Positions 6,256-38,931 of a stretch of DNA of 64,000 nucleotides are shown here, piece by piece. The first letter of the stretch is position 1; each line of letters starts with the position of its first letter. The position numbers and the translations under genes are program-made. The notes beneath the pieces were generated by a model. That model was not told the DNA's origin and made no database searches. It saw only the letters and a program-made list of their open reading frames with translations. The DNA comes from Alicyclobacillus herbarius DSM 13609. GTDB lineage: Bacteria; Bacillota; Bacilli; Alicyclobacillales; Alicyclobacillaceae. The stretch lies in NCBI RefSeq assembly GCF_000430585.1, contig NZ_AUMH01000007.1:62001-126000 (forward strand). The letters are read 5' to 3'.

Positions 6256-6262
6256 AGTGCAC

Positions 6263-6383
6263 GTTCGGCAAGGGGGTTAGACGACTGAGAGCCCCAGGGG
6301 CCTGATTGGCAGTGGGGCCTGGTCGCCAGTGGCGACCGTATAGGCCGGCGATAGCCCTGGGTGGCCCCTTTCCGGACAACCTC
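6263..6383 (+). repeat. Structured intergenic palindrome in the ftsZ leader
   Basis: Outer arms GTTCGGCAAGGGG (6263-6275) and CCCCTTTCCGGAC (6365-6377) are complementary at 11 of 13 positions. Inside is a strong hairpin: GGCCT (6316-6320), GGTCGCC (6321-6327), loop AGT, GGCGACC (6331-6337) and AGGCC (6342-6346). The 19-nt string CCCCTTTCCGGACAACCTC (6365-6383) recurs exactly upstream of remA at 38913-38931. This looks like a member of an intergenic repeat family; a regulatory role in the ftsZ leader is possible but unproven. Confidence 0.6.
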
Positions 6384-6419: not shown

Positions 6420-7565
6420 ATGTTAGAATTTGATTTGGAAGTGGATTCTCTCGCGCGGATTAAGGTTGTCGGAGTCGGCGGCGGGGGATGCAACGCGGTC
6501 AATCGGATGATTGATTCCGGGATTGCCGGGGTCGAGTTTATTGTCGTAAACACCGACGCGCAAGCGCTACGGTTGTCCAAGGCAGAGACGCGCATCCAAA
6601 TCGGGGAGAAGGTGACCCGTGGTCTGGGTGCCGGTGCCAATCCGGAAATCGGCAAGAAGGCGGCGGAGGAAAGCCGGGAAGCGCTAGCCAACGTATTGCA
6701 GGGTGCGGACATGGTGTTTGTTACGGCAGGTATGGGGGGGGGAACCGGCACTGGGGCGGCTCCTATCATTGCGGAGATCTCGAAGGAGCTTGGGGCGTTG
6801 ACGGTCGGTGTGGTGACCAAGCCATTCCGGTTTGAACAAAAACGCCGAATGACCCAGGCGGAGATGGGCATCGCCAATCTGAAGGAAAAGGTCGATACCC
6901 TCATCGTCATTCCCAATGACCGCCTGTTGGAAATTGTCGATCGGAATACGCCGGTCACCGAGGCGTTTAAAGAGGCGGACAACGTCTTACGCCAGGGTGT
7001 CTCGGGAATTTCGGATTTGATTGCCGTGCCCGGTCTCATCAACGTCGACTTCGCAGACGTCAAGGCCATCATGACCGAGCGCGGGTCTGCCTTGATGGGC
7101 ATCGGCACAGCCTCGGGCGAAAATCGGGCCACGGAGGCCGCGAAGATGGCCATTTCCAGTCCGCTTCTGGAAACCTCGATTGACGGTGCACGCGGGGTTT
7201 TGATGCATGTCTCCGGCAGTGAAAACCTGAGCCTGTGGGAAGTCAACGAAGCGGCCGACATCGTATCGGCTGCGGTCGATCCGGAAGTCAACATGATCTT
7301 TGGCGCGAACATCAACCCGGACCTGCAAGATAGTATCGTGGTCACCGTGATTGCCACCGGATTTGAAGCGAAGCCGAACACAGCAGAAACAGGCGCGACT
7401 GGTTCTGCTGCCGGGGTTGCGGCGACGCGCATCCGGACCTCGGTTGCCGATAACTTCACGCAGGCCAATGTACCGTCCAACGCGTGGGATGTCCCGGCGT
7501 TTATCCGGCGTCGCGAAGAGCGTTTTCGGCGCGATCGGGAACGGGAACGGGAACGAGAACGATAA
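6420..7565 (+). CDS. ftsZ: Cell-division GTPase FtsZ
   Basis: Tubulin-like GTPase that polymerises into the Z ring. In 381 residues it shows the N-terminal [13 protein letters not shown] nucleotide loop, the tubulin signature GGGTGTG at 106-112, and the T7-loop region [11 protein letters not shown]. The C-terminal peptide that binds FtsA and other partners reads [18 protein letters not shown] 6420 is used because AGGAGG precedes it; upstream in-frame starts fall in the palindromic leader. After the C-terminal peptide there is an unusual Arg/Glu repeat tail encoded by a hexanucleotide repeat (7536-7562), in place of the short basic tail of B. subtilis FtsZ. Confidence 0.98.
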
Positions 7566-27588: not shown

Positions 27589-28878
27589 TCAAATCCATCC
27601 GCGCCAGCGCATGGCTTCCGCAAGGGGACGGACGCCGGCCATGTATGCGGCCAGTCGGGACGACACTTGGTAGCGCTCCGCCATTTGCAGGATGCTTTGC
27701 ACCGAAGCGACCATCATTTTCTCAAGCCGCTGATTGACTTCCTCCTCGGTCCAATACCAGCCTTGATTGTTTTGTACCCACTCGAAGTAGGAGACGGTCA
27801 CACCGCCCGCGTTGGCCAGCACGTCGGGGACAATCAACACGCCGTTCTCCCGCAAGATCTCCTCGGCCGCAGGGGTCGTTGGGCCATTGGCTGCCTCCAC
27901 GATAATCGACGCGCGGATGCTGGCCGCGTTGTCGACCGTAATCTGGTTCTCCAGCGCGGCGGGAACGAGGATGTCGCATTCCTGCAGGAGGAACTCGTCG
28001 CCCTTCAGCACTTCGGAGAAGTTGTTCGTCACCATGCCGAAGGAGTCCCGTTGGTCGAGCAGGTCGGGAATGTTGAGGCCGTTTTTGTCATACAAGCCGC
28101 CGCCGGCGTCACTGATGCCGACCACTTTGACCCCCCATTCGTGAAGGATGGCGGCCACATTGCTGCCCACATTCCCGAATCCTTGGATAAGCACGCGCAG
28201 GTCCTGGAGGTTGCGGTTTTGTTTCGCCGCCGCTTCCCGGATGGCGATGCACACGCCGAGCGCGGTGGCCCGTTCACGGCCGGCTGAACCACCGAGGACA
28301 AGCGGTTTTCCGGTAATAAATCCAGGGGAGTCGTATTCTCGAATCCGGCTGTACTCGTCGTACATCCAGGCCATGATTTGCGGATTTGTGTAGACGTCGG
28401 GGGCAGGGATGTCTTTTGTGGGTCCGACAATTTGACTGATGGCGCGGACATAACCACGGGCTAGACGTTCCTGCTCGTGGATGGACATCGTGCGCGGATC
28501 GCAAACAATTCCGCCCTTGGCGCCACCGTATGGAAGGTTGAAGATGCCACACTTGATACTCATCCATATGGAGAGGGCCTTCACTTCTTCGACGGTGACT
28601 GCGGGGTGAAAACGAATGCCACCCTTAGTCGGTCCGATGGCGTCGTTGTGCTGAGCCCGGTAGCCTGTGAACACCTCGACCTCGCCGTTATCCATGCGGA
28701 CCGGAATGCGCACCGTAAGCGTTCGCACCGGTTCTTTCAGCAGTTCGTAGACCGTTTCCGAATAACCCAGACGTGTCAACGCTGCGTGTATGGCAGCTTG
28801 TGTGTTTGTCAGCACGTTTTCCGAGGCAGCCGGGCGGTTAGCACCCGCTGCCAATCGTTTGCTGACCTGAGTACTCAT
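27589..28878 (-). CDS. gudB: NAD-type glutamate dehydrogenase (GudB/RocG family)
   Basis: Interconverts glutamate and 2-oxoglutarate plus ammonia in the cytoplasm, linking carbon and nitrogen metabolism. The 429-residue protein has the substrate motif [11 protein letters not shown], the catalytic lysine in [10 protein letters not shown] (Lys121) and a Rossmann domain with [16 protein letters not shown]. Length and the C-terminal [16 protein letters not shown] block match Bacillales RocG/GudB. ATG 28878 is preceded by GAGAGGAG; a longer frame to 28905 is less likely. Single-gene unit with its own terminator. Whether it is the catabolic RocG or the GudB type cannot be told from sequence. Confidence 0.92.
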
Positions 28879-28962
28879 GCCAAGGACGCTCCTCTCGCAT
28901 CGCAACCTGATGATTTCTCAAACCCTGATACATAATAAATCAGTCGAGTCTTGTTGGAAAGT

Positions 28963-29134
28963 GCAGTTTTACAGGTCGTCCGGAACGGGGTCAAAACTCC
29001 CCTTTCGCATTGCTTCGCCAGCGCCCAAAATGCTCCCTCACGTACTGAAATACGTACGCTCGGCTCGCATTTTGGGCTCGCTTCCTTGCACTGCTCGGGT
29101 CTTACCTAACCCCGTTTCGGACATGCAGTTTTAA
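28963..29134. repeat. Palindromic MITE-like element flanked by 10-bp direct repeats
   Basis: Terminal inverted repeats GTCCGGAACGGGGT (28979-28992) and ACCCCGTTTCGGAC (29110-29123) pair at 13 of 14 positions. Inner arms GCCCAAAATGC (29024-29034) and GCATTTTGGGC (29068-29078) are perfect, and CGTA/TACG (29042-29045, 29052-29055) close near the centre, so the whole 145 bp folds as a long imperfect palindrome. TGCAGTTTTA occurs directly at 28963-28972 and 29125-29134, on either side, like a target duplication. No coding content is seen. It fills most of the gap between the divergent gdh gene and the membrane protein gene. Confidence 0.7.
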
Positions 29135-29157
29135 GCCGTAAAGGAGAGAACGACGAC

Positions 29158-30648
29158 GTGCGACAGCGGCCTAAGAACCTGTCCTTCTCGTCTGTGCTTG
29201 GCCACCTACGCGGCGTCGCTTCGTCCTGGGTATTTCATTTGCTGCTGGCGGCTTTGCTTATCATCGCGGTCTTTCTATATCCGCCGGAAATTTTCTCTGG
29301 GGATACCGACACCGCCCGCAACTACCTGAATACCATCGTTTCTTCGCTTTCCACCATTTTGGCCCTCGCTATCTCCATTATACTCGTTGCGATACAGCTT
29401 GCGGCGAGCAATTATACCCACCGAGTGCTCGACTTTTATGTCCGCCTGCCGTACAACGCGTCGCTGTTTCTTCTCTACCTCGTGACCATCATGCACAGTT
29501 TCGTCCTCATGGCGAAAATTCGCGATCCACTTCGCGATCCGCTACCCAAGGCCTTGGTGCCGGAGATGAGCGCCGATTTAGTCCTAGTCATCATTTGCTT
29601 CGTCAGCATGCTCGTCTACATGTATGCGGTGGTCCAACTCCTCAAGCCCGAGCGCATTATTCATCTGGTCATCCGCGACTACCAGCGCGCCTGCCGGAAG
29701 TGCAACTGGCACGCCGCGTTGGACAATATCGAGCAGATCTGTGACATTGCCAAGCGGGCCGCCTCGGCCAGCGATTCGGTCACCGGCATGCACTGCGTGG
29801 AAGTCATGCGCGACATCGGTGCCGAGCTGCCGTTGCCTCGCGGTGAGGCCGATCCGGTCGTCAAAGTGCACGAAAACCTGGTCGACCAGTGGGTGGAGAT
29901 TGTGGGGGTGTCGGTCAAAGAGAAAGAAACCGGCTTGGTCTACGCGGTCCTTGATGCCCTGCAGGCACAGGGGCAACTGTACATCGAGGGGCGCTTCTGG
30001 CCGGGCGCTGTGGTTGTCATCAAGGCGTACCGGCATCTCGTCTTCAATCACCTGTTGGCCGAGGGCCAGGTGTTTGACATCGAACAGGTCGCAGGTCGAT
30101 TGTATCACTTGGCCTTTGACGCGGTGTCCCGCGGACGGCGCGGGCAGGACTTCAGTCTGCGCACGTGGAGCGTCATTGAGACTATTGCCGAATCGGTGTT
30201 CACCAGCCAATCGCAGGTCAGTTCCGCCCTGGTGGCCGGATTTCTCCTGGCCGAGCAAATTCAACCGACCCTGGCCGGGCTGCCGGAAACGGAGCAGCGT
30301 GCGCGGGCCATCACCACATATTTCGAGCTGTGGAAGTCGTTTGCCTTGGGGGCGACACGTCGGGATGCCGCTCGTTGGGCCCGTTGGTGGTCAGAACACG
30401 TGCAGGACGAGGAGCTGGTACGCGCCGGACAAAACTTGGCCTTACTTCTGGCTGAACACCTGGAACGGCAAGACGTCGTGAATACCCTGCGTTACGTTTG
30501 GGACTGGCCCGATGGGGCGTCACCCGAACTGCCGGACGATTTTCGTCCGGGGGCGGCGGGGTTGTTCGATGGCTGGCCTGTATCTTCCAACAGCGAGCGG
30601 ATTCGCGACCGGTCTGGGGTGACAAACAGTGTCCGCTGCCCCTCATAA
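29158..30648 (+). CDS. DUF2254-like integral membrane protein
   Basis: A 496-residue protein with about four N-terminal membrane helices (residues about 24-42, 60-85, 98-118, 138-160) and a long, mainly helical cytoplasmic region. The segment IVSSLSTILALAISIILVAIQLAASNYTHRVLDFYVR resembles the core of the DUF2254 family, whose function is unknown. GTG 29158 has AAAGGAGAG upstream. The last 157 nt overlap the end of rqcH on the other strand, so the final roughly 30 to 50 residues are antisense to rqcH. Single gene after the palindromic element; role unknown. Confidence 0.72.
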   Translation: MRQRPKNLSFSSVLGHLRGVASSWVFHLLLAALLIIAVFLYPPEIFSGDTDTARNYLNTIVSSLSTILALAISIILVAIQLAASNYTHRVLDFYVRLPYNASLFLLYLVTIMHSFVLMAKIRDPLRDPLPKALVPEMSADLVLVIICFVSMLVYMYAVVQLLKPERIIHLVIRDYQRACRKCNWHAALDNIEQICDIAKRAASASDSVTGMHCVEVMRDIGAELPLPRGEADPVVKVHENLVDQWVEIVGVSVKEKETGLVYAVLDALQAQGQLYIEGRFWPGAVVVIKAYRHLVFNHLLAEGQVFDIEQVAGRLYHLAFDAVSRGRRGQDFSLRTWSVIETIAESVFTSQSQVSSALVAGFLLAEQIQPTLAGLPETEQRARAITTYFELWKSFALGATRRDAARWARWWSEHVQDEELVRAGQNLALLLAEHLERQDVVNTLRYVWDWPDGASPELPDDFRPGAAGLFDGWPVSSNSERIRDRSGVTNSVRCPS

Positions 30649-38856: not shown

Positions 38857-38862
38857 GTGCGT

Positions 38863-38931
38863 GTCCGGGACGGGGTTCGGTTTAGGACGGGCGACAGCTC
38901 CAGGAGTTCTACCCCCTTTCCGGACAACCTC
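38863..38931 (+). repeat. Short palindromic repeat upstream of remA
   Basis: GTCCGGGACGGGGT (38863-38876) and ACCCCCTTTCCGGAC (38911-38925) are imperfect inverted repeats around a 34-nt centre. CCCCTTTCCGGACAACCTC (38913-38931) is identical over 19 nt to the ftsZ leader at 6365-6383, and the left arm resembles the end of the element at 28979-29123. Confidence 0.6.

Follow-up and report, generated by a model that had tools for sequence, protein, structure and literature searches.

The genome of Alicyclobacillus herbarius DSM 13609 (the host, G000; 3.31 Mb in 57 contigs) contains a long palindrome between two divergently oriented genes, a glutamate-dehydrogenase-type gene (PF00208, 266.5 bits) and a DUF2254 gene (57.8 bits). 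The palindrome lies in the window analysed here, a stretch of 64,000 nucleotides (C7:62001-126000). A sequence-only reading had described it as a 145-bp imperfect palindrome between 10-bp direct repeats and had taken it for a MITE or a REPIN-like repeat. The question raised by this locus is what kind of sequence the palindrome is and how it came to its place. The comparisons presented below indicate that it is very probably a non-autonomous mobile element of the MITE class, with ends that would be recognised by a transposase in trans and with a middle whose function probably depends on its fold.

The palindrome is real, with coordinates about one base away from those first read. Its terminal inverted repeats, found by arm comparison, have paired parts at positions 28978-28991 and 29109-29122 (14 nt, 93% complementary, 13 of 14 paired). 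The inner stem, supported by arm comparison and by covariation between genomes, is formed by perfectly paired arms of 11 nt at 29023-29033 (5' arm) and 29067-29077 (3' arm). A conserved core hairpin, CTCACGTAC-loop-GTACGCTC, was located by pattern match at 29037-29061 (C7:91037-91061). The boundaries derived from 30 copies in genome G147 and from the family end pattern give a complete element of 157 bp (28972-29128), so that the length of 145 bp has to be replaced. The element is bounded by a 5-bp target duplication, TTTTA, on the left (28967-28971) and on the right (29129-29133); all these features are given for the plus strand. The 10-bp direct repeats TGCAGTTTTA are indeed present at both sides (28962-28971 and 29124-29133), but the duplicated target is only the 5 bp TTTTA. 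The five other matching bases, TGCAG, are the end of the element on the right side (family form ...CGCAC) and host DNA on the left, since both same-genus genomes have TCCAG there.

No ORF of at least 100 aa in the six-frame list overlaps the element, which thus has no coding capacity. The earlier expectation that its RNA would form one long hairpin holds as a prediction: on both strands it folds better than all 200 dinucleotide shuffles (z -4.9 for the plus and -7.4 for the minus strand). From the end of the insertion to the DUF2254 start there are 29 bases, which would put a strong predicted hairpin into the leader or promoter region of this gene. One promoter-like match is directed towards gdh, and a search for a terminator-like site found none. 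No Rfam family, including sX9, matches the element (window positions 28700-29400, up to E 10).

The element is one of many copies. A BLAST search of the host with the 172-bp stretch gave 27 matches at E <= 10 and 16 at E < 1e-11, two of which (L014 and L015) are second pieces of others (L010 and L009). A covariance model, R1, was built from 11 host copies; the window element scores 174 bits against it, being itself one of the 11. In a survey with 15 candidates scored per genome, R1 has matches in 25 of 201 genomes, host counted (E <= 0.001). In G147, a complete 4.86-Mb Bacilli genome from another family of the class, scoring the best 150 of 1357 candidates gave at least 100 matches at E <= 0.01; of those listed, 94 score above 48 bits, and the other 6 are weak at 26-34 bits. 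Thirty G147 copies, each at a different place, share 94-100% identity (mean 98.1%), and 28 of their 435 pairs are identical; the mean majority base is 98.8% inside the element versus 37-38% in the flanks. The ends of the copies are common and sharp. Twenty-seven of the 30 overlap no ORF of at least 100 aa among ORFs picked by script. An intergenic position in the host is established for the window copy alone; in this GC-rich genome a naive ORF context, with 10 of 16 copies overlapping ORFs, was judged spurious and left unused. A first impression of strand bias along the G147 chromosome was also dropped, as the model search showed both orientations.

The family ends have the form GAGGTTGTCCGGAAAGGGG ... 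CCCCTTTCCGGACACGCAC (also written GAGGTTGTYCRRAAAG... and ...CTTTYYGRACACGCAC, or in short GAGGWTGTTCAAAAAG/GTGCGTGTTCAAAAAG). Matches to the end pattern number 83+82 in G018, 42+45 in G003, 27+26 in G043, 35+41 in G050 and 59+52 in G147, against 1+2, 0+0, 0+0, 2+0 and 0+1 for the backward control. Two further members, both on the minus strand and with ends placed by eye, are found in the window. The first (6257-6383; R1 15.8 bits, E 0.037) carries a nested second palindrome, module C, at 6312-6360 (69.8 bits with the module C model, R2), and the second (38857-38931; R1 31.1 bits, E 7e-6) is internally shortened. By eye, neither has an exact duplication. The first is situated about 36 bases ahead of an ATG at 6420, and the second immediately after a TAA and about 19 bases ahead of an ATG, also by eye. 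One family pattern had no match in viral contigs.

The target duplication of the family is 5 bp of the type T-W-W-W-A, adjoining the element ends. It was scored at hand-chosen loci (30 from G147, 32 from other genomes and 20 from the host), with loci lacking recognisable ends dropped. An exact duplication is present at 26 of 29 G147 copies, where 2000 flank reshufflings gave 3.4 on average and 11 at most; in one scored row, L164, a 46-bp neighbour took the place of the intended copy. Eight other genomes together have 21 of 29 (reshuffled mean 4.5, maximum 11). Host copies with an exact duplication number only 4 of the 19 scored (reshuffled mean 0.3, maximum 3), a sign that the family is old there. 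A few rows (L056, L033 and L145) have doubtful ends owing to the loose pattern. A 6-bp duplication was considered and dropped, the sixth base being the element's own terminal C.

The same site was compared in relatives by a search with the DUF2254 protein, which was detected in 31 of the family's 41 genomes; of these loci 20 were examined, including the host's own. In one same-genus genome (G001) the two flanks, which align at 85 and 77%, are separated by 3 bases, versus 170 in the window (28970-29139), and in the other (G002), where they align at 84 and 77%, by 5 bases versus 172. At the 19 relatives' loci no alignment goes past the first 3 bases of the element (E <= 1e-3). Both same-genus genomes thus have an empty site, with a single TTTGG or TCTGG, and a few of the bases beside it differ between host and relatives. 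The simplest reading is an insertion in the host lineage; the alternative would be a precise loss of the element from both relatives. The MITE-type proposal is borne out by the many copies with unrelated flanks and matching direct repeats and by the relatives' sites without the element, which are the two comparisons, of copies and of empty sites, that had been suggested for it.

The middle of the element varies in length. In G003, hairpins of 48 bp have exact duplications in 7 of 8 copies (L136-L143), and forms of 79, 96 and 155 bp also occur; three still shorter copies (L144-L146) gave no usable duplication score. The terminal repeats are common to the size classes examined. By eye, the shortened middles look like deletions between short direct repeats, for example GACCC, and in the 48-bp form the deletion could come after the insertion.

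The middle can also be enlarged by nesting. Module C is a palindrome of about 46 nt, GGGGCTATCGCCCGGCCTAAACGGTCGCCACTGGCGACCAGGCCCC, and 6 of 11 full host copies in alignment A3 carry it, at three different sites and with element sequence on both sides. A further hairpin, D, is found by eye inside module C in L007, L012 and L016, and module C is found by eye within another module C in L068, L074, L077, L080 and L081; there are therefore up to four nesting levels. The module C model, R2, has 32 host matches (E <= 10). Of 28 examined, a few of which share one copy, an element-type end (at most 4 mismatches) lies no farther than 70 bases away in 25 and is missing in 3; by eye, one of these three, L076, does have element ends, with a TTAAA duplication. 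No duplication above about 2 bases is visible at the module C junctions. In module C, 6 of 11 pairs are changed on both sides. R2 matches occur in 11 of 61 genomes, host counted. Outside these elements, module C is located in the 16S-23S spacer of G025 (six equal-scoring copies, of which the three examined are identical and one was placed by Rfam), between the 23S and 5S genes of G024 and beside the 5S gene of G019, and in G021 it follows a T-box leader at a distance of 37 bases (L123 1501-1549; L127 1501-1548; L124 127-173; L125 1501-1547). Two further module C loci, L120 and L122, have no Rfam match.

The pairing of the interior is conserved between genomes. Twenty elements, 1-3 per genome and each with E <= 1.2e-7, were chosen by hand from the R1 matches and aligned, leaving out near-duplicates, antisense matches and one copy with an insert. 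The RNAalifold structure, which is favoured by being derived from this same alignment, has pairing in 93.6% of 718 cells, and 31 of 36 hairpin pairs are altered on both sides between genomes. The covariation score of 0.452 compares with 0.147 in shuffles, of which none in 500 reached it, and with no more than 0.144 after sliding. Palindrome correction during replication or repair could also keep the arms matched; therefore, the covariation is evidence of conserved pairing and not proof of RNA function. Since the stems of the folded core covary, some function probably depends on the fold, be it structure-dependent mobility, palindrome protection or an effect at the RNA level.

The core hairpin extends beyond the host and its relatives. 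Among 398 Bacilli genomes, the host and its relatives being part of the set, 27 contain the pattern CTCAYGTAC-(3-10)-GTACRCTC, with 300 matches by a hand sum versus 2 for the backward pattern, and G147 and G042 account for 154 of the 300. Core-bearing hairpins are located in 16S-23S spacers of G036 (L111 1501-1657), G021 (L108 1501-1629) and G004 (L112 1501-1584). In G129 the distance to a 5S gene is about 450 bases, and G008 has the core between tRNA genes. A longer core pattern, for which about 3 chance matches are estimated by hand, was found in at least 107 stretches among 84,980 species genomes, and 80 of the listed ones are titled. Among the titles listed are Clostridia, Mesorhizobium, Roseiarcaceae, Pseudomonas, Betaproteobacteria, enterics and Paenibacillus; the rows from enterics seem to be a single orthologous locus. 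Sixteen representatives, with the window element as one of them, were folded against 60 shuffles each, and z is -2.8 or lower for 12; the weaker folds are L262 (-2.3), L230 (-1.1), L237 (-0.7) and L197 (+0.4).

The R1 model of host copies was also applied to 40 titled loci outside the Bacilli-type rows. Nine match at E <= 0.01, where E-values are rough and part of most scores is built in, because the loci were picked by their core. They comprise two Betaproteobacteria loci (L260, 3.5e-5; L254, 4e-5), four from Clostridia (L195, L223, L230 and L201), one each from Rouxiella (L185) and Mesorhizobium (L255), and L196, a MAG titled Sphingobacterium that has Paenibacillus-like ends. The other 31, including all Pseudomonas and Citrobacter/Salmonella/Escherichia rows, have no R1 match. 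Two matches lie away from the picked place, L195 4404-4539 (E 3e-6) and L223 136-224 (E 1e-4); the former, in a Clostridia MAG, is a second palindrome with the same core and a different stem that the core pattern had missed. A common origin of the core across phyla is a serious lead and not a result.

Two arrangements of core-bearing repeats were also observed. Rouxiella aceris has five tandem units at a spacing of 122 bp (L185 4501-5065). Paenibacillus sp. D2_2 has at least 11 repeats (L197, L198, L204, L207, L209, L219, L222, L229, L233, L246 and L250), most with TGTTTAAAAAGTC-type ends, and they are perhaps another lineage of the same kind.

The core hairpin CTCACGTAC/GTACGCTC is flanked by motifs of the type CTTYGTCA and TTCCTYG..GTCTKAC. 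A joint reading of these features is possible, although we hold it only tentatively and think it rather doubtful. The conserved interior, with the core at the tip of a freely covarying stem and with its flanking motifs, would be one ancient folded module of palindromic repeats in Bacilli, Clostridia and Proteobacteria. The spread of the family would depend on this module and not on the terminal repeats, and module C would insert by structure into hairpin loops, its own included, so that nested elements would record repeated structure-directed insertions.

The covariation of every stem, the core hairpins in or near rRNA and tRNA genes, and module C in or beside rRNA genes would also suit a regulatory RNA, or a structure for rRNA-operon processing, that is conserved and was copied round the genome without being a transposon. 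This explanation is improbable, as the target duplications, the relatives' empty sites and the nearly identical G147 copies at 30 places speak for mobility, and all 10 core matches in the host are inside element copies.

It is similarly hard to believe that the family is the known bcr1-type MITE of Bacillus cereus. By description, which is the only level at which they were compared, both are Bacilli elements of about 150 bp with a TTTAT motif and a conserved structure (PMC2267715, PMC6542083), but bcr1 is reported to be confined to the B. cereus group and to have copies on plasmids too (PMC6542083), whereas two family members had no match in 72,556 plasmid records.

The weakest alternative, a REPIN or REP-type repeat moved by RAYT, a single-strand HUH transposase, would agree with short palindromes dispersed in the genome and with the hairpins of about 48 bp, but it is disfavoured by the 5-bp target duplications and by the terminal inverted repeats common to the size classes examined, and is very improbable. 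To our knowledge, no target duplication accompanies REP or REPIN sequences. An unpaired GTAG or CGTC tag at one end is described for REPs of 20-40 bp (PMC3733652), and no such terminal tag is seen by eye in the alignment of family ends. Palindromes inside palindromes are a feature in common with the GTAG/CGTC REPs, whose dimers are described within longer palindromes in Anabaena variabilis and Halothiobacillus neapolitanus (PMC3733652). However, the family differs in its target duplications and in its up to four nesting levels, and REP membership is unsupported because of these duplications.

The family behaves as a MITE and can be classed as a structured, recursively nested MITE family. The window element, at 157 bp, is below 500 bp and has terminal inverted repeats, a target duplication, dispersed copies and relatives with an empty site. 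Bacterial MITEs have been reviewed with examples such as QMITE of Coxiella and Chunjie of Geobacter, and the family resembles them, as described there, in the absence of genes, the terminal inverted repeats, the direct repeats at younger copies and the size classes from full to truncated (PMC10969869). MITEs are usually AT-rich, a usual and not a defining property (PMC10969869), whereas the GC content of the window element is 0.57 (57%). The family is also unlike them in its deeply conserved folded interior and recursive nesting, and no related IS was found in the loci examined. The Xanthomonas sRNA family sX9 (RF02228) overlaps the core at two proteobacterial loci, L262 with 42.0 bits (just under the cut-off of 44) and L257 with 32.4 bits, while a third weak match, at L186 (31.6 bits), lies elsewhere in the locus and off the core. 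Elements of the 17 Bacilli loci scanned have no sX9 or other Rfam match. No description of the family was found in titles and abstract openings of the open-licence papers searched.

The proposed mechanism for this MITE family is as follows. The imperfect terminal inverted repeats (GAGGTTGTCCGGAAAGGGG ... CCCCTTTCCGGACACGCAC) would be recognised by a transposase supplied in trans, which would act by cut-and-paste chemistry and cut the target at T-W-W-W-A with a 5-base stagger, leaving the 5-bp duplication. The middle, which holds the conserved folded core with its covarying stems, shrinks by deletions, apparently between short direct repeats, down to hairpins of about 48 bp, and other hairpins (module C, and D within C) are inserted into loops and give nested palindromes.

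In a search for the mobiliser, no transposase framed by family ends was found in 24 G147 stretches, at 30 of 51 listed PF01609 places or at 5 Tn3-type loci. A DDE_Tnp_1 transposase was considered at these 51 places, which are from 5 genomes; at the 30 loci examined, each with about 1.5 kb of flank, none is framed by the ends, so that this candidate is not found rather than excluded. Tn3 elements make 5-bp, AT-rich duplications. The Tn3-type transposase (PF01526) is present in 3 of 7 genomes and absent from the host, G018, G043 and G050, and it was rejected. IS-sized pairs of ends, sought in the 24 G147 stretches and, with a strict end pattern, in 310 loci, proved to be only shortened copies, solitary ends and two separate copies (L151 and L164). 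Between two half-elements 3 kb apart in G018:C99 there is no transposase and the ORFs are ordinary by eye. At this place (L135 1067-4045) the halves flank about 3 kb of seemingly ordinary genes, as if a rearrangement had split an element.

Gene-less small repeats of bacteria are commonly regarded as IS debris specific to a lineage. In this family, a complete genome with about 100 near-identical copies, clear 5-bp duplications and empty sites make mobility testable. The fold is kept between genera while its stems are rewritten, a sign that it matters. Should the core shared with other phyla prove homologous, seemingly unrelated repeats and some loci annotated as sX9 would belong to one superfamily. 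The palindromes in the loops of palindromes would give a natural system for structure-directed DNA insertion.
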